From NCBI GenBank assembly GCA_024743255.1, contig JANSWY010000005.1, forward strand, positions 1 to 64,000: 64,000 nucleotides of DNA, written 5' to 3'. The position numbers and the translations under genes are program-made. Below, piece after piece: positions 1 to 44,903 of the stretch. Position 1 is the stretch's first letter, and every line of letters begins with the position of its first letter. The stretch is from a bacterium. Lineage in GTDB: Bacteria; Bacteroidota; Bacteroidia; Cytophagales; Cyclobacteriaceae. The notes beneath the pieces are model-generated. The model was not told where the DNA came from. It saw nothing but the letters and a program-made list of their open reading frames with translations, and ran no database searches.

Positions 1-2920
1 GCATGATCCATTTCGATGATAACACCAAATCACCCTGTTCAACAGTCAGCAAAATATTGCCAGCTTTTGGCGAAGGAAATGAAATTGTTGCTTCTTCTCC
101 AACTTCATAATTATCCTTTTCTGTTAACAGCGCTAAAGTTCCTTCATTTTTATCACTGGTTGGAATACCTCCATATGGGTAAGCACTCACAAAAATACCT
201 GATGTGTGACCCTGAGGTACAGCATCCTCAATTTCTATAAAGTAATAACCTTTTTGTGATGGTTGAAAAGGTATTGTAGTTAGACCTTTTCCTGAAGTAA
301 CTGATCCTTCATCAACAAGAAAGGAGTGTTTATCTGTCTTATATTTTCTTTTAAAATCACGACGGTTATTGTATTGGTACCACCAGTATGAATCATTTCT
401 ATAGATTCTATAGGATATTTCCCTACCAGCAACAGATTCACCTTCGTGATTTACTACAACTACCGGAATTTCATTTTTTGAGTTTAGCCTTACATTCCAT
501 CTATCAAATTTAATTCCAACGTAATGCGAAAATGGATGTAAATCTGCATAGGCCCAGGAATGGTTTGGCCTACCTCCTTCTTCACTAACTGAAGTTGTAA
601 TTTTAACCTTTAATGGTGATGGTGACTGTTTTAATGAAGGCACAATCCACTCTATATTGACTGTTCCATCACTGTTTAATCTACCAGAAGAAATCTTAGA
701 TCTTATATCCTGAAAATTGAAATTTCTATTTCCAAACTTATAGTCCTTGAACTTTGGAAAATTCGGAGCTACATCAAAAATCTCTACCTCCGTTTCATAA
801 GGTAATTCACCAGCTGTGGCTCCAAATAAATATTTAGCTTCCACATCAATATCAATGGTATTATTCTCCGGAAGAATGGTTCTCAAAGAAGGATCAACTT
901 TGACTTTTAGGCGATTCGCTACAACCGTTTCGATTTTTAAAGTGTGATAAAATCTTTTGTTTCCTATTGAGATATTTGCATTCCAATTACCAGTAGGTGC
1001 ATTTTCATCAGTTTTAATTTTGAAGTTGTAAAAACCATCTTCCGCATCCGAATCAGTTTGCTGAATAACCATAGTGCCTTCAGGGTTAAATACTTTCAGA
1101 TATGCCGGACCACTTGTGCTACGGTTGCTCTTAAACCTTGCTATGCAAGAAATATTTATAGAATCGCCAGGTCTGTAAACTCCTCTTTCTGTATAGATAT
1201 AAGCTCTTGTCTCAAGTCCAAAGGTGCTTATTCCACCAACATTAAAGCCAGAATTGTTCCATTTCATCTCATATGGTTTCAATACGCTTACTTGTCCATC
1301 CTTTCTGGCTACTACAGTTCTGTTTTTGTAAGCACTTAAAGTAGCTACACCTTGAGCATTAGTGACCGCCGTAGAGTAATTATTAGATCGGGATTTAGAC
1401 TGCAAACTCACTCCTTCCAGCGGTTTACCTGTCTTGAGGTCTGTAGTAAACACCTGATATTTGTCGTTACTCCATTTTGCAAGAATTCCAATATCACTTA
1501 TTGTGAATGGTTTAAAAACCTGACCATGCTTTTGGATAAATTTCAAGTCATCTCCCTTGACATCTACCAGCATATCCTTTGGGTTAAAATTGAGGCGGAC
1601 AAGATAGAGTCCGTTATCAAATTCATTCAGTACTCCTGAAAAGTCTACTTCATGTAGTAACCATTCATTCTTTGAGTCTCCGATCTCAAGAGTTTCATTA
1701 TACACGATAGCCCCAATCGATGAAATGTAGGTATTACGAAACTCAGCATTTCTATTCTTAAGGCTATTGATTTGCTCACGGTTAAAGAAATTTTCAATAT
1801 CGTTGTTAAAGACCTTCTTAACTTCAATATGAACCCTAGATAGATTGCTGGTCATGAACTGAAGTCTTTTATTATTCGTGGTTGGCATAAAAATACCATC
1901 AGAAGCAAACTCCACTTGCGGAGGAATGTCTTTGAAGGAAACATTCTTAATGATCTTGCTTCCAGTCTTAGTACCCCATTTACTTTTTATTCCTTCAGCC
2001 AACTCAATTTTATATGATTGACCATACTTGAACTTACCTTCCAGCAAAAGGAACCTTCCCAATTGTTGAATCTTAAATTCCGTTTGAGGTGAAATATTGA
2101 TGAAACCACTTAGCTCCTGAGTCTTGTCAAGGTTATCTGAAAACTGTAGTTGAATAGCAGGAGCCTTTCCTTCCTCAAGCTGCTGCACCTGAGTAACAGA
2201 CATTTCTTTGAGAGGTGTAACCACAACTGTCTTTTCCAGTATTGTTTCCAAGTCTAGTTCATCTCTGTCTATTTGGAATTTGAAGTTTTGATTAGATGAT
2301 GTTCTTTCTATCCCTTCTGAAATGAAACTAAATGTCTTGGAATTCTCTGGGCTCCATTTGATATTCTTTGACCCAAATGTGGTAGATGTTTTGAGATCTT
2401 CCAGAGAGGTCTCCATATTGAAAGAAACTTTACCTCGGTACACTAAGACCTTAGGGTTGTTTGGATTCTGAAGCTCCAGATCACCTTTAAAGATATTAAT
2501 ATCTCTCCCTATCACGGAGAATTTCAGATTTACCTCCTGGACAGTCTTTTCTTTAAACTCATCACTCAAAGCTATTAGGTCTAATGTCCCAGAATAAGTT
2601 TCTCTGCTATCCAGTTCGTTCGATGGTTTGAAAATTAATTTATTACTCCCTTCCCATATGGCTTGTCCTTGGATTGATGGAGAGAAGTTAAACGGGTTTA
2701 TTTCTAAAGGTTGGTTGATCTGTTCCTCGGACACTACACCGTTAATAAATTGAACTTCAATAACTGAACTCGGCATAATATCTCCACCAGTTACATAATT
2801 AACTACTTTAGCGACTTCAACTGAATATTCTAAAGGGTCCTCTCCTTCTTGTTTTTTAGAGTCAGAACATGAGATAAACGCGATAGCAATTAATAGAAAA
2901 AACAGACTTCTTAGTTTCAT
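1..2920 (-). CDS. Alpha-2-macroglobulin family lipoprotein (partial, C-terminal half outside window)
   Basis: The reading frame is open from the ATG at 2920 to the window edge, about 973 codons; full bacterial alpha-2-macroglobulins run to roughly 1,600-1,900 residues, so the bait and thioester regions are missing here. The N-terminus is a lipoprotein signal peptide ending FISC with the lipidated cysteine at residue 18, so the protein is probably membrane-anchored in the periplasm. The decisive motif is YRPGD at residues 582-586, within ERGVYRPGDSI, the signature of the MG2 macroglobulin domain (usually YRPGE). The preceding region has many beta-rich stretches expected of N-terminal MG domains. 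The family traps proteases and is thought to protect the cell envelope. Upstream on the same strand, 99 nt away, is a SecD-domain lipoprotein that could be co-transcribed. A penicillin-binding protein 1C gene often neighbours this family but would lie outside the window. Confidence 0.88.
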   Translation of the reverse strand, partial: MKLRSLFFLLIAIAFISCSDSKKQEGEDPLEYSVEVAKVVNYVTGGDIMPSSVIEVQFINGVVSEEQINQPLEINPFNFSPSIQGQAIWEGSNKLIFKPSNELDSRETYSGTLDLIALSDEFKEKTVQEVNLKFSVIGRDINIFKGDLELQNPNNPKVLVYRGKVSFNMETSLEDLKTSTTFGSKNIKWSPENSKTFSFISEGIERTSSNQNFKFQIDRDELDLETILEKTVVVTPLKEMSVTQVQQLEEGKAPAIQLQFSDNLDKTQELSGFINISPQTEFKIQQLGRFLLLEGKFKYGQSYKIELAEGIKSKWGTKTGSKIIKNVSFKDIPPQVEFASDGIFMPTTNNKRLQFMTSNLSRVHIEVKKVFNNDIENFFNREQINSLKNRNAEFRNTYISSIGAIVYNETLEIGDSKNEWLLHEVDFSGVLNEFDNGLYLVRLNFNPKDMLVDVKGDDLKFIQKHGQVFKPFTISDIGILAKWSNDKYQVFTTDLKTGKPLEGVSLQSKSRSNNYSTAVTNAQGVATLSAYKNRTVVARKDGQVSVLKPYEMKWNNSGFNVGGISTFGLETRAYIYTERGVYRPGDSINISCIARFKSNRSTSGPAYLKVFNPEGTMVIQQTDSDAEDGFYNFKIKTDENAPTGNWNANISIGNKRFYHTLKIETVVANRLKVKVDPSLRTILPENNTIDIDVEAKYLFGATAGELPYETEVEIFDVAPNFPKFKDYKFGNRNFNFQDIRSKISSGRLNSDGTVNIEWIVPSLKQSPSPLKVKITTSVSEEGGRPNHSWAYADLHPFSHYVGIKFDRWNVRLNSKNEIPVVVVNHEGESVAGREISYRIYRNDSYWWYQYNNRRDFKRKYKTDKHSFLVDEGSVTSGKGLTTIPFQPSQKGYYFIEIEDAVPQGHTSGIFVSAYPYGGIPTSDKNEGTLALLTEKDNYEVGEEATISFPSPKAGNILLTVEQGDLVLSSKWIM

Positions 2921-3019
2921 AAGGATGGATCTACAATGGTTAATAATTTAAGAACTCCCTTCTACCTGAATCTTAATTCAGATAGTAAGAGAGATTTAGT
3001 TCCGGTTTCAAAGATAACA

Positions 3020-3946
3020 TTACAAACGAGTTAATTCCAATTTAGCGGAAATAGGATATTTGATAATTACATTAATATATCTACACTCCTCAAAAGAGAA
3101 GTTACCAGATATTTGACATGCACCATTAGGTATTTCTGAATGAACCATGGGAGCCATAAAAACCTCATCATCAAAAGCCATAGCAATTTGTTTACCAATC
3201 ATACTCCCGGTTATTCTTTTCCATTTCTCAGCGTCTTCAGTATCGAACTCCAACATAACTGCAGGTAAGTTTCTACTGTCGGTCTCCACGTGGGACCGTA
3301 AGATGACTGGTGATTTCATTAGAGAAGTATTTCCAGTTTCATATTTCAAAAAATGAACAGCCAACTCCCCTAAATCAACTCCTTTTAAAACTTTCAAGTC
3401 TTCAGGGAGCCGATCTTTTGATGTTTCCAATAACGACAGGTAATTATCCCTGCTTGCTTCGTCCGAAAAGATCACACTACTTCCATGTGGAAAGCTAATA
3501 CTTTGTGATGCCCCATAAGTCAAAGGAAAATTTTTCTCATTAAATTCTCTTGATGTGATCTGTTCATTTTTGTTGGTCCAGAGCAAGCTGTCTGCAGCTT
3601 GTAAATGAAGCATAAGGTTTTGAAACTCATAGGTTCTCCAAAATTCAAGCTTCCCTTGAGTTTCGGCCAGGTTCATAACCTTATCTATGTCATCAATACC
3701 TTTTACATAAACGAATAATTCATTTTTCGATTTTGCATCAATAATTAAATCATTCCTGTATACACCATATTGCAGCATCCTGGATTTCAGCGATTGCTGG
3801 ATATCTTGGATAGATTCAGATCCCTGAAATTCCAGAACTTTAACAGAAAATCGGACTTCTTTATCACCCAATCTTTTTCCGCATGAACTAATTGAAATAA
3901 TGGTAATGATGATAAGTGCAAAGTTGATGAATTGTGGTTGTCTCAT
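3020..3946 (-). CDS. Lipoprotein consisting of a free-standing SecD periplasmic (P1) domain
   Basis: A 308-residue protein with a lipoprotein signal peptide (hydrophobic residues 9-21, then lipidated C22). The rest resembles the large periplasmic domain of the SecD/SecDF translocase: an N-terminal half with a run of the type KNELFVYVKGIDD followed by GKLEFWRTYEF, close to the LEFWETY motif of Bacteroidota SecDF, and a C-terminal half with KQIAMAFDDEVFMAPMVHSE and IPNGACQISGNFSFEE, matching the SecD block that reads roughly IAIVLDG, SAP, I-GG-AQISG-FT. No transmembrane helix follows, whereas true SecD has six. It therefore cannot conduct proton-driven translocation alone. A role in envelope protein folding or export quality control is inference. 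It sits directly upstream of the alpha-2-macroglobulin gene on the same strand. Confidence 0.75.
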   Translation of the reverse strand: MRQPQFINFALIIITIISISSCGKRLGDKEVRFSVKVLEFQGSESIQDIQQSLKSRMLQYGVYRNDLIIDAKSKNELFVYVKGIDDIDKVMNLAETQGKLEFWRTYEFQNLMLHLQAADSLLWTNKNEQITSREFNEKNFPLTYGASQSISFPHGSSVIFSDEASRDNYLSLLETSKDRLPEDLKVLKGVDLGELAVHFLKYETGNTSLMKSPVILRSHVETDSRNLPAVMLEFDTEDAEKWKRITGSMIGKQIAMAFDDEVFMAPMVHSEIPNGACQISGNFSFEECRYINVIIKYPISAKLELTRL

Positions 3947-4016
3947 TAGAATTGGTTTTATAACATCTAAAGTATGTATTTTTATTGTTTGAGCAAAAGT
4001 ACTACTATAATCAGGT

Positions 4017-12489: not shown

Positions 12490-15144
12490 CTATTCATCTC
12501 TAAGAGATTCTACCGGGTTACTTAGAGCAGCTTTTATTGTTTGAAAGCTTATAGCGAATCCCACAATCAGAACTAAGCAAATCGTTGATCCCAAGTATAT
12601 CCAGGGGTTCAATTCTATCCTATCAGCGAAGTTCTGAAGCCAATAATCTGTTGCCAAGTAAGCAAGAGGCCATGAAATCACTGTAGCGATTATTATAAGG
12701 CGCACCACATTTCCAGACAATAGTTTAACCAGCGACGATGTTGCCGCACCCAAAACCTTTCTAATACCAATCTCTTTTCTTCTCAATGCAGCGGAATACG
12801 TGATTAAACCAATTAATCCAATACAGGCAATAAACACTGAAATGGAAGCAAATATTACAAGTACCCTTGCTGTAGATACCTCCGTTTTATACAACCTTTC
12901 GTATTCTTCATCAAAGAAGAAAGATTGCATAGGCTTATCTCCTGCCAATTTTCTATAGGTCTCATCAATGTATGTTACAGTCTCTAGTATGTTTTCAGAG
13001 TTGACTATTTGTACTGATATAAACCCACTGTTATTACTTTGATCAAGCTCTAATGATAAAGGAGCAGTCGCTTTGTGTAATGACTCAAATTGATAATCCT
13101 TGATCACTCCGATAATCTTAATTGGCCTGTCTTTTTTGAAAGCTGATGTCAATGGTTTCCCAATGGGATCATCATATCCAAAAGCCTCAGCTGCCGACTC
13201 ATTTATGACCACAGCATTGGAATCCGAAGGAAATTCTTTTGAAAAAAACCTTCCAGCTACTAATTCCAAACCGAGTACCTCCATGTGCTCATAAGTTACC
13301 TGATTATTAAGGAACAAAAATGTCTCTGCAGCATCTACTTTTCTATATGATCTAATTTCGTAATTCTTTCCTGGAATAGTCTCGGAGTTAGCAACTTGAT
13401 TCACATTCGGATTTCTTCTGATTTCTTGTTTGAATACTTCCAGATTGCTCTTTAGCCAATCAGGTCTTTGAATAACCAAGGTCTGCTCTTTATCGAATCC
13501 AAGGTTTTTAGAGGTCATATAATTTACCTGATTGTACACTACAAATGTGCCTATTATGATAATGATGGAGGTAGCAAATTGTATGGTTACCAGAAAGTTT
13601 CTCAACCAACCGATACTATTTCTACCCGATTGCGCTTTACCCTTTAATACTGCTACAGGTTTGAAAGAGGATAAAACAAAGGAAGGATAGAATCCAGCTA
13701 ACAATCCAACAACAATTGCTAACAGTAGCAATGTCCCCAACCCATAGAATGAATACAAAATACTAAATGAGATCTCTTTTCCAATCAATGAAATGAAATA
13801 TGGTTTAAGTATCATGACCAATACTAAGCCCACAGAGCATGCTATTGAAGCAATCAAAATTGACTCGAAAAGAAACTGAAAAACCAAGGTTCTTTTATTG
13901 GATCCTATAACCTTTCTGATGCCAACTTCCTTAGCCCTTGTTGATGAATGAGCAGTAGCCAAATTAATAAAGTTGAATACCGCTATAAATAATATTACCA
14001 CTCCTATCAGTCCATAAATATATAAGTGAGCAATATTACCAGATGGTTCCAGTTCTCCCAATGAATCAGACTTTAAGTGGATATCAGCAATCGGCTTCAA
14101 TTTAAATTCAACCGTATTTCCAGATGCCTCCCATTCCGATATTTTCAATCCGGTATAATATTCAATTTCAGGTGCCATGTGATCATAAAACACCTGGTGA
14201 ATCTTCTTTTCAAATTCAGGAATATCAACTCCTTCATTTAGTACTACATAAGTATGTTGTGATGTGCCTACCCACCTATTTACATTCCATCTCTTGTTAC
14301 TACTTATGGACCCAAGTAGATTAAATTTAATATGCGAATTTGCCGGAACATCTTCTACCACTCCAGTAATGGTATAAAATGTAGTATCCTCATCCACAGA
14401 AAGCTTCTGTCCCATCGGATCACCATCTCCAAAATACTTTTTGACATAAGACTCAGAAATTACCATGGATTTAGGATGTTTCAAAGCTGTCTCAGGATCA
14501 CCTTTTAACAAATGAAAATCAAATACATCAAAGAATGATTCACTGGCAAACAGAATTCCTTCCTCATTAATCTTCTTACCTCCTTTACCGATCAATAATT
14601 GACCGCTAGCATGAATTCTGGTAGCTTTTATTGCCTCGGGGTAGTTATCCAATAAAATTTGAGCCATAGGACCTGAGGTTGTTGCTTGTTTGTTGGGCTC
14701 ACCTCTTATAACAGCTTCATTACCAACTCTGTATATAGATTGGTAATTGCTGTGAAATCGATCATAACTTAGTTCATTTATTAAGAACAGTGTTATAAAT
14801 ACTAAACATGCTATCCCTACAGATAAACCGAGTACGTTTATCGCAAAATAGCTCTTGTGCTTCAGGAGATTCCTGATCGTTGTGTAATAGAAGTTTTTGA
14901 ACATAGCAATATTTGAGTTTGTTTGACTTTCGAGACCTTTCCATGCATATGGTTGACAGCATTTAATAACATCCCACCAATACATTCTTTGAGCTTTCTT
15001 TAGACCTTTTTCATTTACTCGCTCGTAGAAATATTCTTCCAGATCACCATGAATTTCCTCATAGAGATCCTTCTTACAATACCACTTAAAGAATCTGTGT
15101 GGGAGTTTGGGGATTTGATGGAAACCTGACATTATTTGTCCCAT
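12490..15144 (-). CDS. MacB/FtsX-type permease with N-terminal permease prefix domain (locus 1)
   Basis: An 884-residue membrane protein. Residues ~1-75 form the cytosolic prefix found on PadR-linked permeases (KLPHRFFKWYCKKDLYEEIHGDLEEYFYERV). A first membrane helix (~100-125, FAINVLGLSVGIACLVFITLF) is followed by a periplasmic MacB-PCD domain, three helices at ~380-500 with NLATAHSSTRAKEVGIRKVIGS, a central helix near 550, a second periplasmic domain, and a C-terminal FtsX domain with RRKEIGIRKVLGAA, ending SNPVESLRDE. Such permeases normally act with an ABC ATPase as tripartite or mechanotransmission transporters, but no ATPase gene is nearby. The start overlaps the stop of the PadR gene by 13 nt, so the two are one operon. 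Confidence 0.9.
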   Translation of the reverse strand: MGQIMSGFHQIPKLPHRFFKWYCKKDLYEEIHGDLEEYFYERVNEKGLKKAQRMYWWDVIKCCQPYAWKGLESQTNSNIAMFKNFYYTTIRNLLKHKSYFAINVLGLSVGIACLVFITLFLINELSYDRFHSNYQSIYRVGNEAVIRGEPNKQATTSGPMAQILLDNYPEAIKATRIHASGQLLIGKGGKKINEEGILFASESFFDVFDFHLLKGDPETALKHPKSMVISESYVKKYFGDGDPMGQKLSVDEDTTFYTITGVVEDVPANSHIKFNLLGSISSNKRWNVNRWVGTSQHTYVVLNEGVDIPEFEKKIHQVFYDHMAPEIEYYTGLKISEWEASGNTVEFKLKPIADIHLKSDSLGELEPSGNIAHLYIYGLIGVVILFIAVFNFINLATAHSSTRAKEVGIRKVIGSNKRTLVFQFLFESILIASIACSVGLVLVMILKPYFISLIGKEISFSILYSFYGLGTLLLLAIVVGLLAGFYPSFVLSSFKPVAVLKGKAQSGRNSIGWLRNFLVTIQFATSIIIIIGTFVVYNQVNYMTSKNLGFDKEQTLVIQRPDWLKSNLEVFKQEIRRNPNVNQVANSETIPGKNYEIRSYRKVDAAETFLFLNNQVTYEHMEVLGLELVAGRFFSKEFPSDSNAVVINESAAEAFGYDDPIGKPLTSAFKKDRPIKIIGVIKDYQFESLHKATAPLSLELDQSNNSGFISVQIVNSENILETVTYIDETYRKLAGDKPMQSFFFDEEYERLYKTEVSTARVLVIFASISVFIACIGLIGLITYSAALRRKEIGIRKVLGAATSSLVKLLSGNVVRLIIIATVISWPLAYLATDYWLQNFADRIELNPWIYLGSTICLVLIVGFAISFQTIKAALSNPVESLRDE

Positions 15145-17587: not shown

Positions 17588-18303
17588 ATTACCTAGCAAA
17601 AATACCAGAATCAAAATTAGAAGACCTTGGTGCAATTCGTCATTGGTCTCATTTAAAAATGGCTCGAAAAGATTCTGAAATTTGGGTATCTGGGTTTAGT
17701 AAAGAACAGATCAATTCTAATGAGTTAAAGTGTATACCATTTATAGAATTATTTCAGGAAACTGATTCGAAGCTTTACCCATTAGGTAAAAGAGTACCAA
17801 TTGCCAAAATAGATCGTCTGATCTGGACACCTATTACTAATGGCTTAACAATTGATCCAATTCAGTTTAATCATAACTTATTTGAAATTAAGGAAACCAT
17901 CAATTGGAGATTACAAGCGTCATCTAAAACTCAGGATACTTTTGCGCTCAAAATAAAGATTATTGATTTTCAAAAATCAGTTGAGAATGCGCCAAAAATA
18001 AGGTTAAACCATCTGAAATGGACAGTTAGCAATGATCAGACTGTACTGGTTTTAGGGAGTCCCCCCCTATCTACAAGGTATGTCGAGTCATATTGGTTGT
18101 CAAGGAATAATCTTATTCCTATGGGTTATGATTTTGACTTAAAGGTGCTTGAAAATGAGATCTCAAACTCAATTGAGAATGATAATGCGGATTATATCCT
18201 TTGGGACAAATCAGGTGGCTATCAGATTATCACTAATAATGTTCTCGAGTCGGTTTCCAGAAGTTCAGTAAAGAAAACGTTAAATCGCCTTTCAGATGAG
18301 TAA
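17584..18303 (+). CDS. Accessory protein of the MoxR-vWA-beta-propeller system (bpX-like)
   Basis: A 239-residue cytosolic protein. The likely start is TTG at 17584, giving a TTGA overlap with the MoxR stop; the first in-frame ATG, residue 23, would cut off a conserved-looking helix. Residues ~20-120 alternate hydrophobic beta strands with the block LYPLGKRVPIAKI-RLIWTPITNGL, and the tail is helical (SVSRSSVKKTLNRLSDE). I cannot name the domain firmly from sequence alone; gene order and size fit one of the small bpX proteins found between MoxR and vWA genes. It overlaps the following vWA gene by 8 nt, so four consecutive genes are translationally coupled. Confidence 0.72.
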   Translation: MNYLAKIPESKLEDLGAIRHWSHLKMARKDSEIWVSGFSKEQINSNELKCIPFIELFQETDSKLYPLGKRVPIAKIDRLIWTPITNGLTIDPIQFNHNLFEIKETINWRLQASSKTQDTFALKIKIIDFQKSVENAPKIRLNHLKWTVSNDQTVLVLGSPPLSTRYVESYWLSRNNLIPMGYDFDLKVLENEISNSIENDNADYILWDKSGGYQIITNNVLESVSRSSVKKTLNRLSDE

Positions 18304-20611
18304 TTACCTTAGCTCATATGATGGCTATTTCTGGAATTGGGATAGTAAAAAAGAAGTTACTGAAGTAGTTGAAGGCAGTACAATTGCATATACTGAAACA
18401 CTTAGTAAGTTATTAAAGGGTTTTACAGGGAAACCCATTCCATCTTTTGGCACCTTGTTATTAGTAATAATTGCAACTAATGATAAATTGTCAGATGACC
18501 TCTCAATTATAGAAAAGCGCCTTAGAACCGAGATAGCCAGGCATCCGTTTGAATCACCAATTGAACTTACTAATATTCTGGAAGATGCTATCAGGCTATT
18601 GCGAATGGTTGAGCAACTCCCTGACACCCTGAAATCAGCGAATTCCAGAATCCAGACCATTGTTGCTTTATTTGAAAATGCGCATAATCTAGTTTCGCAA
18701 TCAAGGATAAGTGGTATATGCCGTGTTTTGGATAACCCGAATAAACATTATCACATCACTAAAGAAAGCGAATTTCCAATTTCCGTTTTTCGTAAGGAGT
18801 TTAGGCCTCTGGCAATGATGGTGGAGAAGTTTCGGTCAGTAGAAGGCCTTATCAAACATTTGACCGCTATACCTTCAATTTCAGAAGAGCTCATGATCGA
18901 AGGGGATGGTGAAGACTCAAGAACCGGTGAATTAAGTTTAATAGATAAATTAATTCAAGATCCAGGCACTTTTCAAATTGGGTCACTAATTAAAAGAATA
19001 TGGTCCGGTTTAAGTGTTCCCTATCACCTATCACTTCCTAGCGGGCAACCATTAGGAGGCTTTAGTGATATCACCAACAAAGGAGATTATGACAAAATAT
19101 TGATTTCAGAATTCGCAAATGACGATGCAATACTCTTGTCAAGATTGGCAAATAATGAGGCCTTATTTCTGAGAAGAGAGGAACCTCCATCTGATGAAGA
19201 GTTTGAAAGAGTCATTTTGGTTGATGTGTCAATCAGGAATTGGGGTACTCCCAAAATCATTGCTTATGCCCTACTTATTGCAATTGCTAATCACCCTAAG
19301 ACAGACATCACTTGCACTGGCTATGCAGTGGGGAATGATGTAATTGAGATTAAGTTCGGGACTGTTGATGAGGTATTGGCTAGCCTTGAGCAGATTGATA
19401 CTTCATTAAATCCTTCTAAGGGTCTTTCAAAGTTTCTGGATGAGTTTAAGAACAAGAAAAACGTAGAAGTCTTCTATATTTCCTCAATTGACTCTATTAA
19501 ATATCCAGAAATGCAACAGGTTCTAAATGAACATCATGCATTTTTTAAATATTGGATTAACGTGAGTCGAGATGGTGACATCTTGTTATATAAGAATCAA
19601 TTCAAATCAAAACGATTAATTCAGGAAATTAAGCTTCCTTTGGAAGAATTATGGTCGAGTTCCCCACGCATAAATAGATCAAAACCAGAAGTCAATTCCA
19701 ATGAAAGTTCTATACCCTTATTGATACCCGCAGCATCAAATTACATTGCTAAAACAATAGTCACAGAACACATCAATCTTATTGTATCGAGAAATAAAGA
19801 CCTATCTATTGCAATCAAATATCCCGAAAGGAAAGGTTTGAATTTCGTAACTAATTTGAGCTATTTCACAAAAGACACTTTGTTTGCGGCCAAGCAAAAT
19901 GAAAATACTGAGATCATAACACTTTGCTATGTCCCGAACCAGAAGAAAATTCATGTAAATAATTTGACAACAAAGGAACACCGTGAGTTCTCCTACTTAA
20001 ACTTTTCTCCCTGGTCAACCCCAGAAATTATCTGTTTTGAAGGAGAGTTCTATTTCATTGGCAAATACTCTTGCTATCACATAACATATGAGCCAAAACT
20101 CAATGTTACTCATATCTCGAAGGTACCTGATACATTAAAAGAGTTTCACAATAGTAACAGATATGGGTTTCCCGTTTACTGCGAGAGTGTATTGCAAAAC
20201 GTCAAATCAATCGCAATTAACAATGTAGGAAATCTAATTTTTAATGGAAGACACGAATTACGAATAACTCACCTCAAACAACTTCGACTTGAAAGGTCAA
20301 ATTTCATGTTTGAATCAGTAAGATCTGGACAAGAGGGACGGAATTCACAATTATTTAAATTTCCAGAAGGAAGTACTATTGAGGCAAGTAAAACCGGCTA
20401 CTTGAAATTTGTAAGTAGTAACAAAGGAATTGATGAATTTTATATTCCAACAGCTCTGGATTTTGATTTAGCTATTGTTAACAAATTGGAATTTGCTGGA
20501 AACAAATACTTTAACTCCACCCAAACAAAGCAGGAGATAAATCAACTATCTGTAATGAATGACACTTATTTACAGGCATTTATCAAAAATATTACCCAAA
20601 CATGGAGTTAA
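18296..20611 (+). CDS. vWA domain-beta-propeller protein of the MoxR ternary system
   Basis: A 771-residue cytosolic protein with three regions. Residues ~1-290 are a helical N-terminal module ending in SGQPLGGFSDITNKGDYDKILISEFANDDAILLSRLANNEALFLRREEPP, a block characteristic of vWA proteins in MoxR ternary operons. Residues ~304-430 are a von Willebrand A domain (VILVDVSIRNWGTPKIIAYALLIAIA). Its metal site is degenerate: the DxSxS motif reads DVSIR (310-314), losing the second serine. Residues ~485-771 are repeated beta-strand units (for example LCYVPNQKKIHVNNLTTKEHREF and EIICFEGEFYFIGKYSCYHI), consistent with a beta-propeller. The vWA part is the expected MoxR partner and the propeller a target-recognition part. 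Overlaps are 8 nt upstream and 10 nt downstream. Confidence 0.85.
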   Translation: MSNYLSSYDGYFWNWDSKKEVTEVVEGSTIAYTETLSKLLKGFTGKPIPSFGTLLLVIIATNDKLSDDLSIIEKRLRTEIARHPFESPIELTNILEDAIRLLRMVEQLPDTLKSANSRIQTIVALFENAHNLVSQSRISGICRVLDNPNKHYHITKESEFPISVFRKEFRPLAMMVEKFRSVEGLIKHLTAIPSISEELMIEGDGEDSRTGELSLIDKLIQDPGTFQIGSLIKRIWSGLSVPYHLSLPSGQPLGGFSDITNKGDYDKILISEFANDDAILLSRLANNEALFLRREEPPSDEEFERVILVDVSIRNWGTPKIIAYALLIAIANHPKTDITCTGYAVGNDVIEIKFGTVDEVLASLEQIDTSLNPSKGLSKFLDEFKNKKNVEVFYISSIDSIKYPEMQQVLNEHHAFFKYWINVSRDGDILLYKNQFKSKRLIQEIKLPLEELWSSSPRINRSKPEVNSNESSIPLLIPAASNYIAKTIVTEHINLIVSRNKDLSIAIKYPERKGLNFVTNLSYFTKDTLFAAKQNENTEIITLCYVPNQKKIHVNNLTTKEHREFSYLNFSPWSTPEIICFEGEFYFIGKYSCYHITYEPKLNVTHISKVPDTLKEFHNSNRYGFPVYCESVLQNVKSIAINNVGNLIFNGRHELRITHLKQLRLERSNFMFESVRSGQEGRNSQLFKFPEGSTIEASKTGYLKFVSSNKGIDEFYIPTALDFDLAIVNKLEFAGNKYFNSTQTKQEINQLSVMNDTYLQAFIKNITQTWS

Positions 20612-31863: not shown

Positions 31864-33690
31864 TTAACTTGACTTACTTAATGGTCTATATGGCAAACCC
31901 TTGCCTTTAAAACCTACATTTCCATAAAACTCTACAAATGTTAATCGAAGTGGGTGTACAAATGATCCTAAGGCCGCAATGCCGAAGTTTAAAGTATGCC
32001 CAAATAGCAAGAATACTATTCCTATAATGACGCTAATGATTCCTCCTTCCATTATTTGCATACCAATTTGATTTACTACTAGCCCAAGCACTGAAGAAGC
32101 TAGTCCAAGTGCGAAAAGCCTGACATAGGACAAAATATCTCCCAGTATCCCAGTAAATATGAAGAACAATGGCATAAACGCACCTCCTATTCTACTCATG
32201 ATAGATATATCAAGACGATGAAAAAATACTACGAGAGCAACTCCGACAATAAGCATATAATTCTTAAAACCGCTCATCACATCCAATGTTTCAACCCCTT
32301 GCATTTCAACCAGAAAGATCCAAATTAGACTGGAAACAATAAGCAGCTTACCAAACGGCGCTATTGCATACAATTTCCCAGAGTAGCGGAGATTGTTGTA
32401 GATAGCAACAATAATCCCGGTCAAGATTTGAATAACACCGATCATTAATGCTACATTAAATGCATTGAAAACCACAGAACTATCATCGGGTATAATCACC
32501 CAATCTGATAATTGACTGATCCAAGCTATAGGATGATCCGGGAGTAGCATGATTCCGAAAAGGCTGCCGGATTTAATAAGCCCCATAATCATTGTAATAG
32601 AGCCTAAAATCAATCCCAGAAACGCTACACGTTTACTATTTTTGAGAAATGTGAAGTACCCAATACCCATGGCTAATGTTAAGACAAAACCATATCCCAT
32701 ATCACCAAGACAGTATGCAAATAAAATAGGATAGAATACTGCCAGGAAAGGTGTTAAATCAGTTTCATAATAATTGGGCAATTCAAATATCTTAGTAATT
32801 GGTTCGAATAATTTCGGATATTTTCTATTCTTTAAAACAACAGGAACATCATCATCCCATTCAGGTTTTCTGATTTGCCATGCGACTTGCTCACTTTTGA
32901 GAAACCCAACAATCTTTTTCTCTTTATCCACTGGAAACCAGGCGCTTAAAGAAATTAACTTCCCTTCAAAGTGCTCATGATATTTAGTTTCAGTTTCTTT
33001 TAGCAAAATCTGATCTTGTTGATATAAAACTCGCTGCTCCAATTCTGGAATGAATGGCAGGTATACAGTTAGTGATAATTTTAGGGCATCTAATTTTGTT
33101 TCTAATTCTTGAATTTCACTTTCCAGTTGAGACAGTGATTTTGGAGGAAGTGCAAAGCTTTCAAAGTTATCATCAATATTGACTTCCTTCCTCGCAATTA
33201 TCACAAAATAGATGATTGGTCCCGATTGATTGATCACTTCTAAAACAGCATCTTCTAGATGGATAGTATTGAATTTCTTCTTATCAGTATTCCCCAATAA
33301 AACCTTAAACCCATTTTTTAATAGTGGCTTAAAATTCTCATAATCATAATTCCCCCAGGGAGCTATTCTATCTTGTGCTTTTTTGAGTTGTTCAATTTTT
33401 TTATTGGCTTCATTAATGTCTTCTTCAGCCTTAACCAATTGATTAATCACCTCCTTTAACTCCAGATTGGCACTTGTAACATTCGTATCACCTTGTTGAG
33501 CTTCTGAATTAAGAAACTTAAGTAAACCGTTAATTAGATTTTGCTCATGAACCAAATCCTCTGATCCCTCATAATTATCAATCTCCTTTTCCTCTATATG
33601 CAAGACTCCCAAATCCTGCATTGATCGTGTAAAGGCACTTCGCTGATTTTCATGAGTCATTATGATCAGTTTTCTGAATTCGGTTTTCAT
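31864..33690 (-). CDS. ntpI: V-type ATPase subunit I (stator, a-subunit)
   Basis: A 608-residue protein. The N-terminal ~300 residues are cytosolic with long coiled coils (ELKEVINQLVKAEEDINEANKKIEQLKKAQD). The C-terminal half has about seven or eight membrane helices, including PFLAVFYPILFAYCLGDMGYG. The conserved arginine helix is GDILSYVRLFALGLASSVLG, where the arginine faces the rotor ion site. The end carries the family block ALGSFVHPLRLTFVEFYGNVGFKGKG. It provides the ion half-channels. Its ATG overlaps the stop of subunit D by 4 nt. Confidence 0.95.
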   Translation of the reverse strand: MKTEFRKLIIMTHENQRSAFTRSMQDLGVLHIEEKEIDNYEGSEDLVHEQNLINGLLKFLNSEAQQGDTNVTSANLELKEVINQLVKAEEDINEANKKIEQLKKAQDRIAPWGNYDYENFKPLLKNGFKVLLGNTDKKKFNTIHLEDAVLEVINQSGPIIYFVIIARKEVNIDDNFESFALPPKSLSQLESEIQELETKLDALKLSLTVYLPFIPELEQRVLYQQDQILLKETETKYHEHFEGKLISLSAWFPVDKEKKIVGFLKSEQVAWQIRKPEWDDDVPVVLKNRKYPKLFEPITKIFELPNYYETDLTPFLAVFYPILFAYCLGDMGYGFVLTLAMGIGYFTFLKNSKRVAFLGLILGSITMIMGLIKSGSLFGIMLLPDHPIAWISQLSDWVIIPDDSSVVFNAFNVALMIGVIQILTGIIVAIYNNLRYSGKLYAIAPFGKLLIVSSLIWIFLVEMQGVETLDVMSGFKNYMLIVGVALVVFFHRLDISIMSRIGGAFMPLFFIFTGILGDILSYVRLFALGLASSVLGLVVNQIGMQIMEGGIISVIIGIVFLLFGHTLNFGIAALGSFVHPLRLTFVEFYGNVGFKGKGLPYRPLSKSS

Positions 33691-34277
33691 GCTTCTTGCA
33701 TTTTTCGGTTCTTCATGATCTTTTGTCCAGCCTTGGAGATGTTTTCTTTATCCTCCAGAAATCGCTTAATTTTGATTGTTGCGTCCTCCATCTCTGGAAT
33801 TTGGACCTTCTCGTATAGATTCACTTTTTGAGTGGTCTTTTTACGAGCATTATCCAGGAGCTTAATCTGAGTTCCAAGAATGTCTATCTTGAAATCCAGT
33901 TCTGTTGCTTCTTTTAGAATTTCCATTCCTGCTGGTATCCATGCTGGGTAACTCCACCAACTAAAATCAGCCATTTTAAATGTAACCTTTTGAATTTTAG
34001 GAACTTTTACACCAATGACTAATTCATTTTCAACTCTCAATCCCTCAATGAATAGCACTTTAGGAAACTCTTCCCAGAAACCGGAGTTTTCCAATACACG
34101 GGACATGAGTCTGTCCTTTTCAACCTTCGCTGCATTCAACTTCTCTTGCCTCTCCTTTACTTCCAATCTCAAAGCAGTCTCCTTATTTTTCAAAATAGGC
34201 AAAGCTTTCTCCCGAATAGTCAATTGTTTCTTGAGCTCCTGTATAGTTGTTTTATTGTATTGGAATTTAAGTGACAT
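33687..34277 (-). CDS. ntpD: V-type ATPase subunit D (central shaft)
   Basis: A 196-residue, almost wholly helical protein. The N-terminus (KFQYNKTTIQELKKQLTIREKALPILKNKETALRLEV) and the C-terminal coiled coil (LGTQIKLLDNARKKTTQKVNLYEKVQIPEMEDATIKIKRFLEDKENISKAGQKIMK) match the rotor shaft subunit D, including the typical R-T-QKVN pattern. It turns inside the A3B3 head. The gene sits two nt after subunit B and overlaps subunit I by 4 nt. Confidence 0.93.
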   Translation of the reverse strand: MSLKFQYNKTTIQELKKQLTIREKALPILKNKETALRLEVKERQEKLNAAKVEKDRLMSRVLENSGFWEEFPKVLFIEGLRVENELVIGVKVPKIQKVTFKMADFSWWSYPAWIPAGMEILKEATELDFKIDILGTQIKLLDNARKKTTQKVNLYEKVQIPEMEDATIKIKRFLEDKENISKAGQKIMKNRKMQEA

Positions 34278-34279
34278 GA

Positions 34280-35617
34280 TTAGGCTGTTTGTTCTTCAGT
34301 AATTTTCCAGTACTTATTCAGAAACTCTTCCTTTATACCCACTTCATACCTCTCGAAATGTTTTTGCAAAAGCTCCCATCCAGTTTCTAACATTTCATCT
34401 ATACTTATATTGATATCGACTGCAAGAAGCTTGATTGCATAATCCTTTGAGAAATTAAGGCACCTTACATCATATTCATTTAGATCAAATCCATTTTCTT
34501 TTTTCGTCTTGGCATCCATTGCATCGGCATATAGACGAATCAATGCATTCATTACCTGAGGGTGGTCCTCTCTGGTCTTTTTTCCAATAACGTTTTGCTT
34601 TAATCTTGATAAGCTCCTGAATGGGTCTACTATGACCTTACCAATATCTGAATCACGCTTTAGATAAAGCTGTCCTTCCGTGATATATCCTGTATTATCC
34701 GGAATAGCATGTGTTATATCCCCTTCATTAAGAGTGGTTACTGCAATCATCGTGATTGAGCCTCCATGTTGAAATTGGACCGCTTTCTCATAGATGGATG
34801 CTAGATCACTATAAAGCGAACCCGGCATACTGTCTTTTGATGGAATTTGATCCATTTTATTAGCAACTGTAGCAAGAGCATCTGCATACAACGTCATATC
34901 AGTCAATAATAGCAGCACCTTTTCCTTCTTGTCATTTGCAAAGTATTCTGCAGCGGTACAGGCCATATCAGGAATGAGTAATCGTTCCAACGAAGGGTCT
35001 TCCGAGGTGTTGATAAAACAAACAATTTTATCAAGCACCCCAGCAGATTCAAAGGTATTCTTGAAGAATAGAAAATCGTCATTGGAGAGTCCCATTCCAC
35101 CCAAAATGATTTTATCCGCCTCAGCTCTAAGGGCTACATCCGCCATTACCTGATTGTATGGTTGATCAGGATCTGCAAAGAATGGTATCTTCTGACCGGT
35201 AACCAAAGTGTTATTTAAATCTATCCCGGCTATTCCAGTAGCCAATAGTACGTTAGGTTTTGCTCTATTTACGGGATTTACGGTTGAGCCTTTTATTATG
35301 CGTTCTTCACCAGATACTGGAGATCCATTATCTATAGGTTGTCCTAATGCATTGAAAAAGCGACCAGCCAGCAAATCACTTACTTCCAGCGTTGGTGGCT
35401 TCCCTGTAAAAATAACTTTTGATTGAGTTGAAACTCCTTCAGTTCCTCCAAAAACCTGCAATGTCACCAAGTCGTTAACAACACTTATGGCCTGTGCTGG
35501 TCTATCATTAATCCATGCGAGCTCTCCATATTTGATATTGCCAGCTTTTACCACACAGGTTGCTTTGGTGATTCGCTCAATTCTGGTATATGTCTTACGA
35601 AATGCCTTGGTTTGCAT
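34280..35617 (-). CDS. ntpB: V-type ATPase subunit B (non-catalytic)
   Basis: A 445-residue soluble subunit of the A3B3 head. It has the family blocks GRFFNALGQPIDNG, ATGIAGIDLNNTLVTGQKIPFF and DMTLYADALATVANKMDQIPSKDSMPGSLYSDLASIYEKA. The P-loop position (KIPFFADPDQPYNQV) lacks a Walker A lysine, as expected for the non-catalytic subunit. ITHAIPDNTGYITEGQLYL is also conserved. The start overlaps subunit A by 23 nt, so translation is coupled. Confidence 0.95.
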   Translation of the reverse strand: MQTKAFRKTYTRIERITKATCVVKAGNIKYGELAWINDRPAQAISVVNDLVTLQVFGGTEGVSTQSKVIFTGKPPTLEVSDLLAGRFFNALGQPIDNGSPVSGEERIIKGSTVNPVNRAKPNVLLATGIAGIDLNNTLVTGQKIPFFADPDQPYNQVMADVALRAEADKIILGGMGLSNDDFLFFKNTFESAGVLDKIVCFINTSEDPSLERLLIPDMACTAAEYFANDKKEKVLLLLTDMTLYADALATVANKMDQIPSKDSMPGSLYSDLASIYEKAVQFQHGGSITMIAVTTLNEGDITHAIPDNTGYITEGQLYLKRDSDIGKVIVDPFRSLSRLKQNVIGKKTREDHPQVMNALIRLYADAMDAKTKKENGFDLNEYDVRCLNFSKDYAIKLLAVDINISIDEMLETGWELLQKHFERYEVGIKEEFLNKYWKITEEQTA

Positions 35618-37367
35618 AACTTCCTGATTTATTGTTTATTAAATCACTGATCTGACCTTCATATTTCATAAATGAATCTGATTTGTATTCCGAAAAATTC
35701 ATTTGCGCGACTAGATTGATCATGTTCTTAAACAAATCCCTAACCTGCTCAAACTCCTCAAATTCATAGTCAGTATTACACAATCCTAAAATGAAATTCA
35801 GCATGTATTTTTGACGATCCATTTCTGTTCTCATATCTATGTCATCAAAGGAGTTTTGCTGGATGATACCAAAATCAATCAATTCGCTTTTCCAGAAATT
35901 GATGTGATAGTCAATGGGGACTGCATCGTCACCAAGAATATTGATTTGGTCTCGTGCCTCTAGTCCTATCCTAAGAATATCTTTTGCTTTCTTAATCTCC
36001 TGAACCCAACCCTTCTGTATATTCTCATCACTATATTGCTGAAATTCCAGGTAGTCGAGGTATTTTGAGTATGAGGCTAATGGATCAATAGCCGGGTATC
36101 TTTTAGAGTCTGCTCTTTTTTGAGAGAGCGCATAAAAACATCTCGCCACCTTACTTGTGGATTCTGTTACAGGTTCTTTGAAGTTCCCTCCTGCTGGTGA
36201 AATCGTTCCGATGAATGTTACAGAACCACTTTCATCATTATACAGATTTACAATTCCAGAGCGACTATAGAAATTAGCAATTGTGGCTGGCAATTCAACC
36301 GGAAATGCATCCTGCCCAGGAAGTTCTTCCATCCTATTAGACATTTCACGCAACGCTTGCGCCCATCTAGATGTGGAGTCCGCCAAAAGCAATACTTTTA
36401 GTCCCATACATCTATAATACTCTGCGAGTGTCATTCCTACATATACAGAAGCTTCTCTGGCGGCTACAGGCATATTGGAAGTATTACAAATGATTGTAGT
36501 TTTGGTATCGAGCTTGTGTCCGGTAACAGGGTCAGTTAAGTTTGGAAACTCTGAAAATATTTCAACTACTTCATTTGCTCTTTCCCCACAAGCTACTATA
36601 ATTAAAATGTCTGCTTCACTATTCTTTGCTATTGCCTGTTGCAATACTGTTTTACCTGTTCCGAAAGGACCTGGTATGTATCCGGTTCCTCCTTCCATCA
36701 TTGGGTTTAAAGTATCAATCACCCTTAAGCCAGTTTGAAATATCTTTCCTGGTCTCAATTTTTCTCTAAATCCTCTTAAAGGTACTTTGACTGGCCATTT
36801 TTGCACCATTGTCACTTCCTGTTCCACCCCATTTTGATCCTCTACGCGAGCAATTACATCTCTAATTCCGTATTCACCTTCCGAGGCAATCCACTTAACA
36901 GTGAAAGACCCTTTCCAGGACAATGGCAACATGATTTTGTGGTCAATGTTTTGTTCTTTCACATTGCCTAACCAGTGACCGGCCATTACCTTTTCCCTCT
37001 CCTTGGCTAATGGTTCAAATGAAAATCTGGAATCATCATCTAACGGGCTGGTACTATCTCCTAACTCGATGAAAGTCCCTGACATTTTTTCCAGATCACT
37101 TTGTAACCCATCATATTTTTTAGAAAGGATACCAGGACCAAGTTCTACTTCCAACATTTTACCAGTAAACCTTACCTCAGTTCCAATTTGTATTGACTCA
37201 GAGGACTCGAATAATTGTGCAGACACAATGTTTTGTTGCACACGAATTACTTCCGCCTTTAACCATTTTCCAGCATTTACCAGACATACTTCATTCTGTG
37301 TTGCTGGACCATCTACTTCAACGAGCAGTAAGTTTGAAATTATTCCTTTTACTTTTCCAGTTGTCAT
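35595..37367 (-). CDS. ntpA: V-type ATPase subunit A (catalytic)
   Basis: A 590-residue catalytic subunit with Walker A GPFGTGKT at residues 233-240, preceded by the bulge typical of V-type A subunits (residues ~90-190). Downstream blocks include [68 protein letters not shown] and [12 protein letters not shown]. It hydrolyses or makes ATP in the A3B3 head. Its ATG overlaps the DUF2764 stop by 4 nt. Confidence 0.96.
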
Positions 37368-39853: not shown

Positions 39854-42214
39854 TTACTCAACTTTTAGTCCATCAACCGGATTGCTTTTAGCGACTCGTC
39901 TTATCTGGCTTGACATAACAATTGTCATCATTAATATCATAATCATCACCGCTATCACAATTCCTGAAAAGGTCATTGGCATGGGATAAGCATATAACAT
40001 TTTCATATTGGCATCAATCAGTAAGTAGCTAAATGGTATACCTATAGTCAAGGAAACAATAGTTAGTACAGCATATTGCTTCATAATATTTCCTGCAATA
40101 TTTCGCATCCGTGCTCCCAGGGCTTTTCTAATACTAAACTCTCTTGTCCTTCCAGTCACGTTTATTTTGACCAACCCATACAACCCCAGGGCGGCTAATA
40201 GAATTGCAATGGAAGCAACTGCATTGAAGAATTTCTCTGCAGTGTAAACCTGGTCAAAGAAATAAGACCAAACACCAGCTTGTTCACCTCCCTGAAATGG
40301 AGTTTCCGGGAATAACCTGGCCCAAGATCCCTGTAGACTTTCTTTTACATCTTCCAGTTTGCCTTCTTGAGATTTGATGGATATGTAGTTATAGGAATTC
40401 TCATCAGCAACCCTAAATACAGTAGGCCTTGTTTTGTCATAGAAGCTATAAAGGTGGAAGTCCTTTACCACACCAACGATCTCGTATCTATTAATATCTG
40501 ATTTGAATACATGGCCAATTGGATTACTCAAACTTAGGTTATTAACCAGTTCTTCATTTACGATCAATGATGTTTTATCATCCTCAAAGTTTGATTTAAA
40601 GAATCTTCCTTCCTTCAGGTTAACTCCATGGGTTTGCAAATAACCTGGCTCGATACTAAGAGACCTTGCTTCAATCTTTTTATCAGGTTGGCTTAAAACT
40701 ATTGTTTCTATTTCTTTACCCAGATGATGTTCCGATCCCGATATTGAGATTACATTTGGATCTTTTATTAATTCAGCCTTCAAACGTTCAAATCCGATTG
40801 AGTTCACTCTTGCGTAGACTGTTTGCTTTTGGTTATAGCCCCAACTTCTATTGTGCTGAAATTCTACATTTTGAGCAAACATTACAGCTCCAGTGATTCC
40901 CGTACAGGCAAGAACTATTTGTACTCCCAACAGCATCTTGGTCACCGGACTTTTCTTCCCAAGTTTTACTGAGCCTTTCAATATTCCAACGATCTGAAAT
41001 TTCGAAATATAGATTGCCGGATATCCTCCAGAGATTAATCCGGTAATTAATATTAAAACGGGTAGAAATACCCAGAAATTAAGATTATTAAAATCAAGTA
41101 GCAGCAACGTTCCGGAAAGATCACTAAACCAAGGTAAGATGAATAAATAAGATAGCAGCAAACCTAAAGCCAGAGCTAAAGTAGTGATTACTATATTTTC
41201 CAGCAGAAACTGAAGGATTACCTGACTACTGTTTGCTCCAATTACTTTCCTAAGGCCAATTTCCTTCAGTCTTTTAGCAGCTGACACTATCGCTATGTTG
41301 ACATTATTGAAACATGCTATCAATAGCATAAAAATGGCTATTATAGGTAGGCCAATTCTTGCTTCTACATTATCATCATAACTGATGTCTTCCAGAATAA
41401 ATGAAGATCGAGCATGCAGAGTATTTAAAGACTCAAGTTTGAATTTCGAAATGGACCAGTCGCTTTCTTTACTATTTTGAATTAATCGATACTTGTCTAA
41501 CCCTTGCTCCAAAATTTTGAAGTCAGATGATTCATCAAGCTGTATAAGCAAGCCTGTGTTGTAAAGTGACCAGTCCTGTGACACATATTTTGGATCAAAA
41601 TGCTCAATGTTTGAGTAATTGATCAGGAAATCAAAAGAGATTGCATGTGCATCGGGCAACTTCTCAGCTACACCAGTTACAATGAAATTTTTCTTAAAGT
41701 GTTCATTAAATATGATCCTGATAGTCTCTCCTATTGGATCAATAGCACCAAAGTACTTTTGTGACATTTGATGAGATAGTATTATCGTACTTTGATCTTG
41801 CAAAGACTCTTTATCTCCCAGTCGAAGTGGAAATGTCATAATCTCCAGAAATGTAGGATCCACCAGTCTGATACTTTCATGAAATACATCTTCTCCCCTC
41901 TTCACAACAACATTTCTATCCTCTATTCTGGTTGTACTCCTGATTTGCGTGAATTCATTATTAACATGTCTGTAAAGCGGTACAGGGGCTTTTCCATATT
42001 GCTTCTCTGTTCCGTCGATATTCACAAAGTATGTCAACAAGTAAGTATCATTTTTATTAACATGGTGTTGATCTATACTCTTATCCTGTTCCAGGAAAGA
42101 AAACACCATAATGCTTATTCCAATAGCCACTGCTAAGCCCAAGATGTTGATAGCAGTTGTAAATGGATTCTTAAGTAATGACCTAATCGTAGTTTTGAAG
42201 TAGTTAGAAAACAT
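39854..42214 (-). CDS. MacB/FtsX-type permease without prefix domain (locus 2, third paralogue)
   Basis: A 786-residue membrane protein. It starts NYFKTTIRSLLKNPFTTAINILGLAVAIGISI, exactly where the prefix domain ends in its two upstream paralogues, so it lacks that domain. It then has a periplasmic MacB-PCD domain, the FtsX block ACFNNVNIAIVSAAKRLKEIGLRKVIGANSSQVI, a second periplasmic domain and a C-terminal FtsX domain with RTREFSIRKALGAR, ending NPVDGLKVE. It has its own upstream copy of the 40-bp operator-like module. No ABC ATPase gene is nearby. The transported substrate is unknown. Confidence 0.9.
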   Translation of the reverse strand: MFSNYFKTTIRSLLKNPFTTAINILGLAVAIGISIMVFSFLEQDKSIDQHHVNKNDTYLLTYFVNIDGTEKQYGKAPVPLYRHVNNEFTQIRSTTRIEDRNVVVKRGEDVFHESIRLVDPTFLEIMTFPLRLGDKESLQDQSTIILSHQMSQKYFGAIDPIGETIRIIFNEHFKKNFIVTGVAEKLPDAHAISFDFLINYSNIEHFDPKYVSQDWSLYNTGLLIQLDESSDFKILEQGLDKYRLIQNSKESDWSISKFKLESLNTLHARSSFILEDISYDDNVEARIGLPIIAIFMLLIACFNNVNIAIVSAAKRLKEIGLRKVIGANSSQVILQFLLENIVITTLALALGLLLSYLFILPWFSDLSGTLLLLDFNNLNFWVFLPVLILITGLISGGYPAIYISKFQIVGILKGSVKLGKKSPVTKMLLGVQIVLACTGITGAVMFAQNVEFQHNRSWGYNQKQTVYARVNSIGFERLKAELIKDPNVISISGSEHHLGKEIETIVLSQPDKKIEARSLSIEPGYLQTHGVNLKEGRFFKSNFEDDKTSLIVNEELVNNLSLSNPIGHVFKSDINRYEIVGVVKDFHLYSFYDKTRPTVFRVADENSYNYISIKSQEGKLEDVKESLQGSWARLFPETPFQGGEQAGVWSYFFDQVYTAEKFFNAVASIAILLAALGLYGLVKINVTGRTREFSIRKALGARMRNIAGNIMKQYAVLTIVSLTIGIPFSYLLIDANMKMLYAYPMPMTFSGIVIAVMIMILMMTIVMSSQIRRVAKSNPVDGLKVE

Positions 42215-42262
42215 AAATTTTTTGAGGTTTTGACCCTGTTATATTAGTATAAGTTCTATTAT

Positions 42263-42302
42263 ATATAACTAATATACGGCTTCAAATTCTTATTTGTTCT
42301 AT
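42263..42302 (-). promoter_or_regulatory. 40-bp operator-like module, copy A (before the third permease)
   Basis: On the plus strand it starts ATATAACTAATATA and ends TTTGTTCTAT, with exactly the same total length (40 bp) as the copies before padR (47831) and the TonB receptor (53155). On the coding strand the proximal part reads TATATTAG, one base from the Bacteroidota -7 element TAnnTTTG. It lies about 50 nt before the permease start at 42214. Candidate binding site for the PadR protein of this locus. Confidence 0.7.
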
Positions 42303-42315
42303 AAAATAGAATTAA

Positions 42316-44901: not shown

Positions 44902-44903
44902 CT

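Follow-up and report, generated by a model that had tools for sequence, protein, structure and literature searches.

What is the role of a gene that appears to encode the periplasmic P1 domain of SecD on its own, as a lipoprotein, in a genome that also encodes SecDF? The gene lies near one end of the window, by which we mean the whole stretch of 64,000 nucleotides that was analysed (C93:1-64000 of genome G000, which comprises 6.6 Mb in 192 contigs). Its open reading frame extends over positions 3023-3946 of the minus strand, with the ATG at 3946 and the stop codon at 3020-3022, and encodes 308 amino acids. A preliminary description had suggested that the product is a SecD ectodomain that became a lipoprotein of the envelope, next to an alpha-2-macroglobulin (A2M) gene. 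The features that bear on this reading are collected in Table 1.

Table 1. Features at and around the lipoprotein gene, with positions in the window
Feature	Position	Strand	Basis or remark
A2M lipoprotein-like gene, truncated at the contig start, 973 aa present	1..2920	(-)	99 bases downstream of the lipoprotein gene, co-directional
TAnnTTTG before the A2M gene, possible own promoter	3009..3016	(-)	
Candidate full-P1 SecD-type lipoprotein gene, 308 aa	3020..3946	(-)	ORF; PF22599 E 3e-16; hhalign to SecDF P1 99.9%
Second half of P1, including the P1 head	3023..3490	(-)	Pfam, alignment, hhalign
Variable linker, residues 109-152, shorter than that of SecDF P1	3491..3622	(-)	alignment
P1 base-like N-terminal half, residues 30-108, including LEFWRTYE, without LDLxGG	3623..3859	(-)	alignments
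Predicted lipobox Cys22; GKRLG at +2..+6, without surface-export (LES) motif	3881..3883	(-)	
Predicted signal peptide, residues 1-21	3884..3946	(-)	one K/R near start, hydrophobic core, 19-residue Kyte-Doolittle mean 1.83
TAnnTTTG, Bacteroidota -7-like element	3994..4001	(-)	47 bases before the lipoprotein ATG; suggestive only

The gene product and the SecD P1 domain

The frame lies where the preliminary description had put it, on the minus strand, and carries the SecD P1 blocks LEFWRTYEF, AMAFDDEVFMAP and IPNGACQISGNFSFEE; its residues 210-295 match the Pfam domain SecDF_P1_head (PF22599) with 59.8 bits against a cut-off of 27 (E 3e-16). SecD_1st (PF21760), the N-terminal domain of the P1 base, is found with 12.4 bits (E 0.11), below its cut-off of 27; in the lipoprotein of genome G793 the same model is over the cut-off, with 50.3 bits. 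Most of the similarity to SecD P1 lies in the second half of the protein, and the N-terminal P1 segment can be recognised only weakly. The NCBIfam SecDF equivalog gives 113.6 bits, with a cut-off of 1037, and the matches to the NCBIfam SecDF and SecD models are partial and far under the cut-offs, as is expected of an isolated domain. When structures were searched with phmmer, Thermus SecDF was found (3aqo, 9e-8; 3aqp, 7e-7), and when an alignment of two lipoproteins was compared by hhalign with ten Bacteroidota SecDF P1 sequences, the probability was 99.9 and the E value 4e-31, with lipoprotein residues 36-301 set against P1 residues 91-406 of 412. The E value of PF22599 and the hhalign probability together rule out a chance similarity. 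The P1 of the genome's own SecDF is 23.6% identical to the protein, and among 20 SecDFs the closest reaches 30.7%.

In an alignment with SecDF P1 regions from the same family, the window lipoprotein is colinear with the later part of P1: a helix and a strand of the base (R-x-R ... LEFW) are followed by a shortened variable linker, a D-centred segment and the head, and the C-terminal end falls approximately at the point where SecD would enter TM2. Missing are the LDLxGG motif beside TM1 and most of the about 90 residues after it; a segment like the one that follows LDLxGG is still present in three longer relatives (G793, G882 and G948). The lipobox of the preliminary description is found again, with Cys22 fitting a PROSITE-style pattern. 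So is the lack of membrane helices, since the largest 19-residue Kyte-Doolittle mean beyond the signal peptide is 0.76, from which follows that no membrane helix is predicted there.

The same features could be thought to arise from a broken secD. The stop codon is separated from the next gene by 99 bases, which leaves no frameshifted SecD membrane part downstream, just as the preliminary description had it, and one full, intact SecDF of 998 amino acids is encoded on another contig of the genome. A broken secD is ruled out by these two observations, and the intact SecDF further implies that the window gene encodes an additional, paralogous SecD ectodomain and is not what is left of a disrupted gene.

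Structure models were built from thin alignments (12 and 8 rows), and the mean pLDDT from AlphaFold is 46.6 for the whole window lipoprotein and 54.1 for a 156-residue part of it. For the whole protein, SecDF/P1 chains take ranks 1 to 5 among the PDB matches of Foldseek, at E 2e-3 to 1e-2 and with a TM of at most 0.22; the first PDB match of the 156-residue model is 5yhf, with an E value of 0.11 only. Models of this quality say little about the fold. The sequence comparisons argue strongly that the window protein is the SecD P1 ectodomain of a Bacteroidota SecDF without its membrane part.

Relatives of the protein and their descent

A protein search of 98 genomes of the family gave one further free-standing copy, in Splendidivirga corallicola BMA10 (G016), and when the genomes with two matches were checked, the full-P1 form was found in at least two of 390 family genomes (G000 and G016). 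Among the matches listed, there is no further full-P1 copy in 241 genomes of the order, and an intact short P1 frame occurs in at least eight of 396 genomes of the class (G882, G948, G793, G835, G825, G941, G748 and the window genome). With Splendidivirga added to these eight, there are at least nine intact full-P1 lipoproteins, all such numbers being lower bounds. The count excludes the copy in G756, a P1 frame with one in-frame TAG within the match, a P1 piece at a contig end (G808) and the short frames of G032 and G186; two other partial frames are a SecDF cut by a contig end (G038) and an interrupted SecDF frame (G443). Two scans of viral contigs and a first scan of genome contigs gave no relative of the window lipoprotein, and a second scan of genome contigs gave the Splendidivirga copy and seven SecD/SecDF loci, five of which are titled Planctomycetota or Phycisphaerales. 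The reading of the protein as an envelope lipoprotein made from a SecD ectodomain is supported, and the form recurs in other Bacteroidia, with at least eight more intact copies. As a separate matter, two genomes that share a genus each have two full-length SecDF-type frames at a distance of about 4 kb (G158:C1:4674559-4679065 and G223:C1:3859784-3864321).

All nine intact copies have an N-terminal segment resembling a signal peptide and an aligned Cys. The PROSITE-type lipobox pattern is present in six of the nine in its strict form and in all nine in a loose form, which was written after the nine copies had been seen, and either form fits one of 60 distinct SecDF N-terminal parts. The free P1 copies are accordingly inferred to be lipidated. 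For surface export, PMC5080379 describes a lipoprotein export signal (LES) with K-(D/E)2, or a polar residue and acids, near +2..+6, a rule shown there for signals from Capnocytophaga, Bacteroides and Flavobacterium. Two acids in +2..+6 occur in none of the nine copies, and since the known surface-export signal is absent from all of them, they probably face the periplasm.

To see which parts of P1 are kept, consider the columns that are near-invariant in SecDF, that is, with a residue common to at least 19 of 20 SecDF P1s. In the nine lipoproteins, 195 of 269 such cells are kept in the second half with the head and 99 of 241 in the base, a contrast that is inflated in that the head aligns better and also seeded the searches; for the N-terminal part and the C-terminal end, the corresponding values are 33 of 72 and 34 of 62. 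Eleven near-invariant columns are kept in all nine lipoproteins. Of the motif next to the membrane, none of the letters G, L, D and L is retained in any copy, several copies being gapped there, and the paired glycines of LDLxGG survive in three and four of the nine. As judged from this alignment, the head is the better conserved part of the free P1 copies, and a kept head together with a lost LDL is what would be expected if the head works uncoupled from the membrane.

Selection can be estimated from the only close orthologous pair, G882 and G948, where the lipoproteins are 68.6% identical, with a dN/dS of 0.21 and a dS of 0.86 (430 codons, Nei-Gojobori). Between the same two genomes, dN/dS is 0.052 for the P1 of SecDF and 0.033 for the rest of SecDF. 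These ratios support the view that the lipoprotein of this pair is kept by purifying selection, under a constraint weaker than, or different from, that on SecDF; no orthologue of the window copy was found, so that the estimate covers the G882/G948 pair only.

Seven further proteins have the head only, with an N-terminal signal-like segment as judged by eye (G191, G472, G198, G263, G622, G639 and G618). Their sizes are 146-312 amino acids, PF22599 is over its cut-off in all seven, the G198 protein has a lipobox and the G622 protein an extra DUF4440 domain; in RefSeq such proteins are named 'SecDF P1 head subdomain-containing protein'. A PF22599 survey of 109 genomes found a free-standing copy in four, the window genome included. 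By eye, the gene for the P1-head and DUF4440 protein (L062:5841-6689) lies amid respiratory complex I (nuo) genes, and the head-only proteins at L063:6022-6459 and L064:5940-6377, from two genomes of one genus, have similar neighbours. In a tree of the head, six of the seven head-only proteins cluster (94/93), and the seventh, that of G472, pairs with the Splendidivirga lipoprotein (90/88) on very long branches, a pairing that may be false. A constrained head tree with the window and Splendidivirga copies monophyletic is 2.2 log units better (p-AU 0.552), which neither establishes nor rejects their monophyly; a single clade of the nine free-standing copies in the head tree is not rejected either (p-AU 0.413).

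Did the full-P1 lipoproteins arise once or repeatedly? In the P1 tree with all nine copies, the G793 lipoprotein groups with SecDFs from the genus to which it belongs, three in number (99/98); this placement is stable in trees with fewer rows (100/98 and 100/99). The G835 copy, too, falls beside three SecDFs from its genus (87/90), but with fewer rows this placement is not recovered, and the five-copy tree pairs G835 with G756 (99/99) without a firm position for the pair. The copies of G882 and G948, which belong to the genus of G793, are placed apart from the SecDFs of that genus and join the G825 copy (92/89, all-nine tree). The P1 tree leaves out the SecDF of G709, for which no end motif was found, and the own SecDFs of G748 and G825 are outside the data set. 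The genus of G793 (g255) has two kinds of P1 lipoprotein, one in G882 and G948 (L067:4621-5919 and L069:3357-4646) and one in G793 (L068:5614-6945), the latter being closer to SecDF.

Forcing all nine full-P1 copies into one clade costs 20 log units, with a p-AU of 0.079, and one clade for four copies gives 0.060. One clade for five shorter-branched copies, G756 now among them, gives a p-AU of 0.00996 (C20) and 0.00914 (LG+G4), for a subset picked for its short branches after the first tree had been seen. With G793, G835 and G756 held together, p-AU is 0.00787 and 0.0622 under the two models, and with G793 and G835 held together, a pair also chosen after the tree had been seen, it is 0.0056. 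A single family by vertical descent is hence rejected by the test on five copies, but not by the test on all nine. As a clade of all copies would imply the rejected clade of five, the data are better read as two or more independent conversions, and the SecD ectodomain has probably become a lipoprotein at least twice. The end branches of six of the nine lipoproteins are 1.65-5.67 long, whereas the median for the whole set of rows is 0.42, and those of the window and Splendidivirga copies are the longest in the P1 tree. The window copy has no firmly supported place there.

Gene neighbourhoods

The A2M neighbour, to which the preliminary description had drawn attention, turns out not to be a general companion of free P1. 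At E<=1 there is no A2M match in nine other full-P1 loci, including the copy with the stop codon, nor in seven head-only loci, all scanned as stretches of 5-14 kb, some of them cut by contig ends. For the window A2M gene itself, a search of 147 other genomes from the order gave no match at E<=1e-75, and the window genome has a second A2M, with a frame of 1862 amino acids. An A2M partnership was rejected as a general explanation on these grounds, and the gene is, as far as shown, not part of the system. Both genes are preceded by TAnnTTTG, which we take to be a Bacteroidota -7-like promoter motif and of which the window holds no excess (50 occurrences, where 76 are expected), so that co-transcription of the lipoprotein and A2M genes might occur or might not. 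A scan for sigma-70 promoters is at the level of shuffled sequence (8 found, 7.2 expected), and a scan for terminators found none.

At the other loci, conservation of the neighbouring genes is limited to one genus. In G793 (L068:2166-6945) the P1 lipoprotein gene lies directly upstream of a full secDF, on the same strand and at a distance of 265 bases, and this tandem is the clearest trace of an origin by duplication. In G835 (L071:1463-6434) groEL, part of an LptE-x-SecG-GroEL cluster, is followed after 97 bases by the P1 lipoprotein gene. The remaining full-P1 copies adjoin genes without visible link to export.

Elsewhere in the window, a protein with the bpX0/bpX1 domains of the MoxR-vWA-beta-propeller ternary system is encoded at 18296-20611, and V/A-type ATPase genes (V_ATPase_I and ATP-synt_ab domains) at 31864-37367. 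Among ten of the larger open reading frames, which were scanned, five are MacB/FtsX-type permease genes, three of them in tandem (12490-15144, 39854-47471 and 59123-61729).

Possible function and comparison with known systems

The reading that we prefer, with a probability of about 0.4, is that free P1 is a lipid-anchored, static binder without a motor, which acts beside SecDF and derives from a secDF duplicate. SecF and every membrane segment would have disappeared from such a duplicate, with TM1 replaced by, or turned into, a lipoprotein signal peptide. The P1 ectodomain would then be exported and lipidated, and would stay at the periplasmic side of a membrane, given that there is no surface-export signal. 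With the proton-driven motor absent, free P1 could not pull; its static head may bind emerging or unfolded chains, or P1 partners (periplasmic chaperones, BAM), and the lipid-anchored protein may hold exported proteins or hand them over next to SecDF. The SecD P1 head contains a pocket for substrate binding and is in contact with PpiD (PMC11470409), and SurA is predicted by modelling to bind the P1 head (PMC9987972). According to PMC7695460, overproduction of SecDF in E. coli moves Sec components into outer-membrane fractions, an effect lost without P1, and the interaction between Sec and BAM is described as independent of the proton path. For free P1 itself, we infer both the binding activity and the link to export. 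Against an export role is that most full-P1 copies are not near sec genes, and from the rarity of the form, with at least two of 390 family genomes, follows that its function is dispensable.

A different possibility is that the P1 head fold and its pocket were recruited for another envelope ligand, in a module unrelated to Sec. The very fast divergence, with the long end branches in six of nine copies, the mostly unrelated neighbourhoods and the occurrence of exported head-only proteins in further architectures, such as head plus DUF4440, speak for this, but it is the pocket-bearing half that is kept best, including the 11 near-invariant SecDF columns common to all nine, and we regard such a recruitment as rather unlikely. 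One may also picture free P1 as a decoy or regulator, which draws chains, chaperones or SecYEG away from SecDF and thereby damps or tunes export. The same domain is indeed present alongside SecDF in the window genome, and the G793 copy adjoins secDF; an identity of 23.6% to the P1 of its own SecDF is, however, poor for mimicry, and the link to secDF is not conserved, which makes competition an unlikely role.

If, on the other hand, the lipoproteins were decaying duplicates without function, their patchy distribution, their long branches and the in-frame TAG of the G756 copy would be accounted for. Nine frames are nevertheless intact with an aligned lipobox Cys, dN/dS is 0.21 in the one pair measured, and the loss of membrane segments together with the gain of a lipobox has taken place probably more than once, so that decay seems quite improbable. 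Least credible of all, and in our judgement very improbable, is a functional pair with A2M, where a protease trap and P1 would join in envelope defence or quality control: the two genes are co-directional and 99 bases apart, and both N-termini look lipoprotein-like by eye, but the arrangement is seen once, without an A2M match in the nine other full-P1 loci, and the A2M gene has a possible promoter of its own.

Returning to the static binder, a wider proposition is that SecD ectodomains became, in several independent events, lipid-anchored factors of the periplasm that have no motor yet still take part in export. It is tentative, and the odds are somewhat against it. If it is true, P1 has a useful activity, such as holding chains or passing them on to chaperones or BAM, even without the proton motive force and the membrane part of SecDF. 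How much of the help that SecDF gives in late export comes from proton-driven pulling by P1, and how much from plain binding and hand-over, is still argued, and natural P1 proteins without a motor would be a ready experiment on this question. The free P1 copies suggest, moreover, that there is a class of envelope lipoproteins for which searches of full-text literature gave no paper.

How do these proteins compare with known systems? The closest structural reference is the P1 ectodomain of Thermus SecDF (PDB 3aqo, 3aqp and 5yhf), the head of which is matched in 3aqo and 3aqp. In contrast to P1 as it occurs in SecD and SecDF, the lipoproteins are without membrane helices, SecF and LDLxGG, and have a lipobox in place of TM1. 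The head-only proteins of Bacteroidota and relatives resemble the window protein in that the head is exported and no membrane part is seen in their frames, but differ from the full-P1 lipoproteins in having no recognisable P1 base. In Vibrio, SecD2/SecF2, controlled by VemP, is likewise a case where the main SecD is accompanied by another protein of the SecD type. SecD2/F2 is a second full pair of translocase subunits, whereas the window protein is free P1 only.
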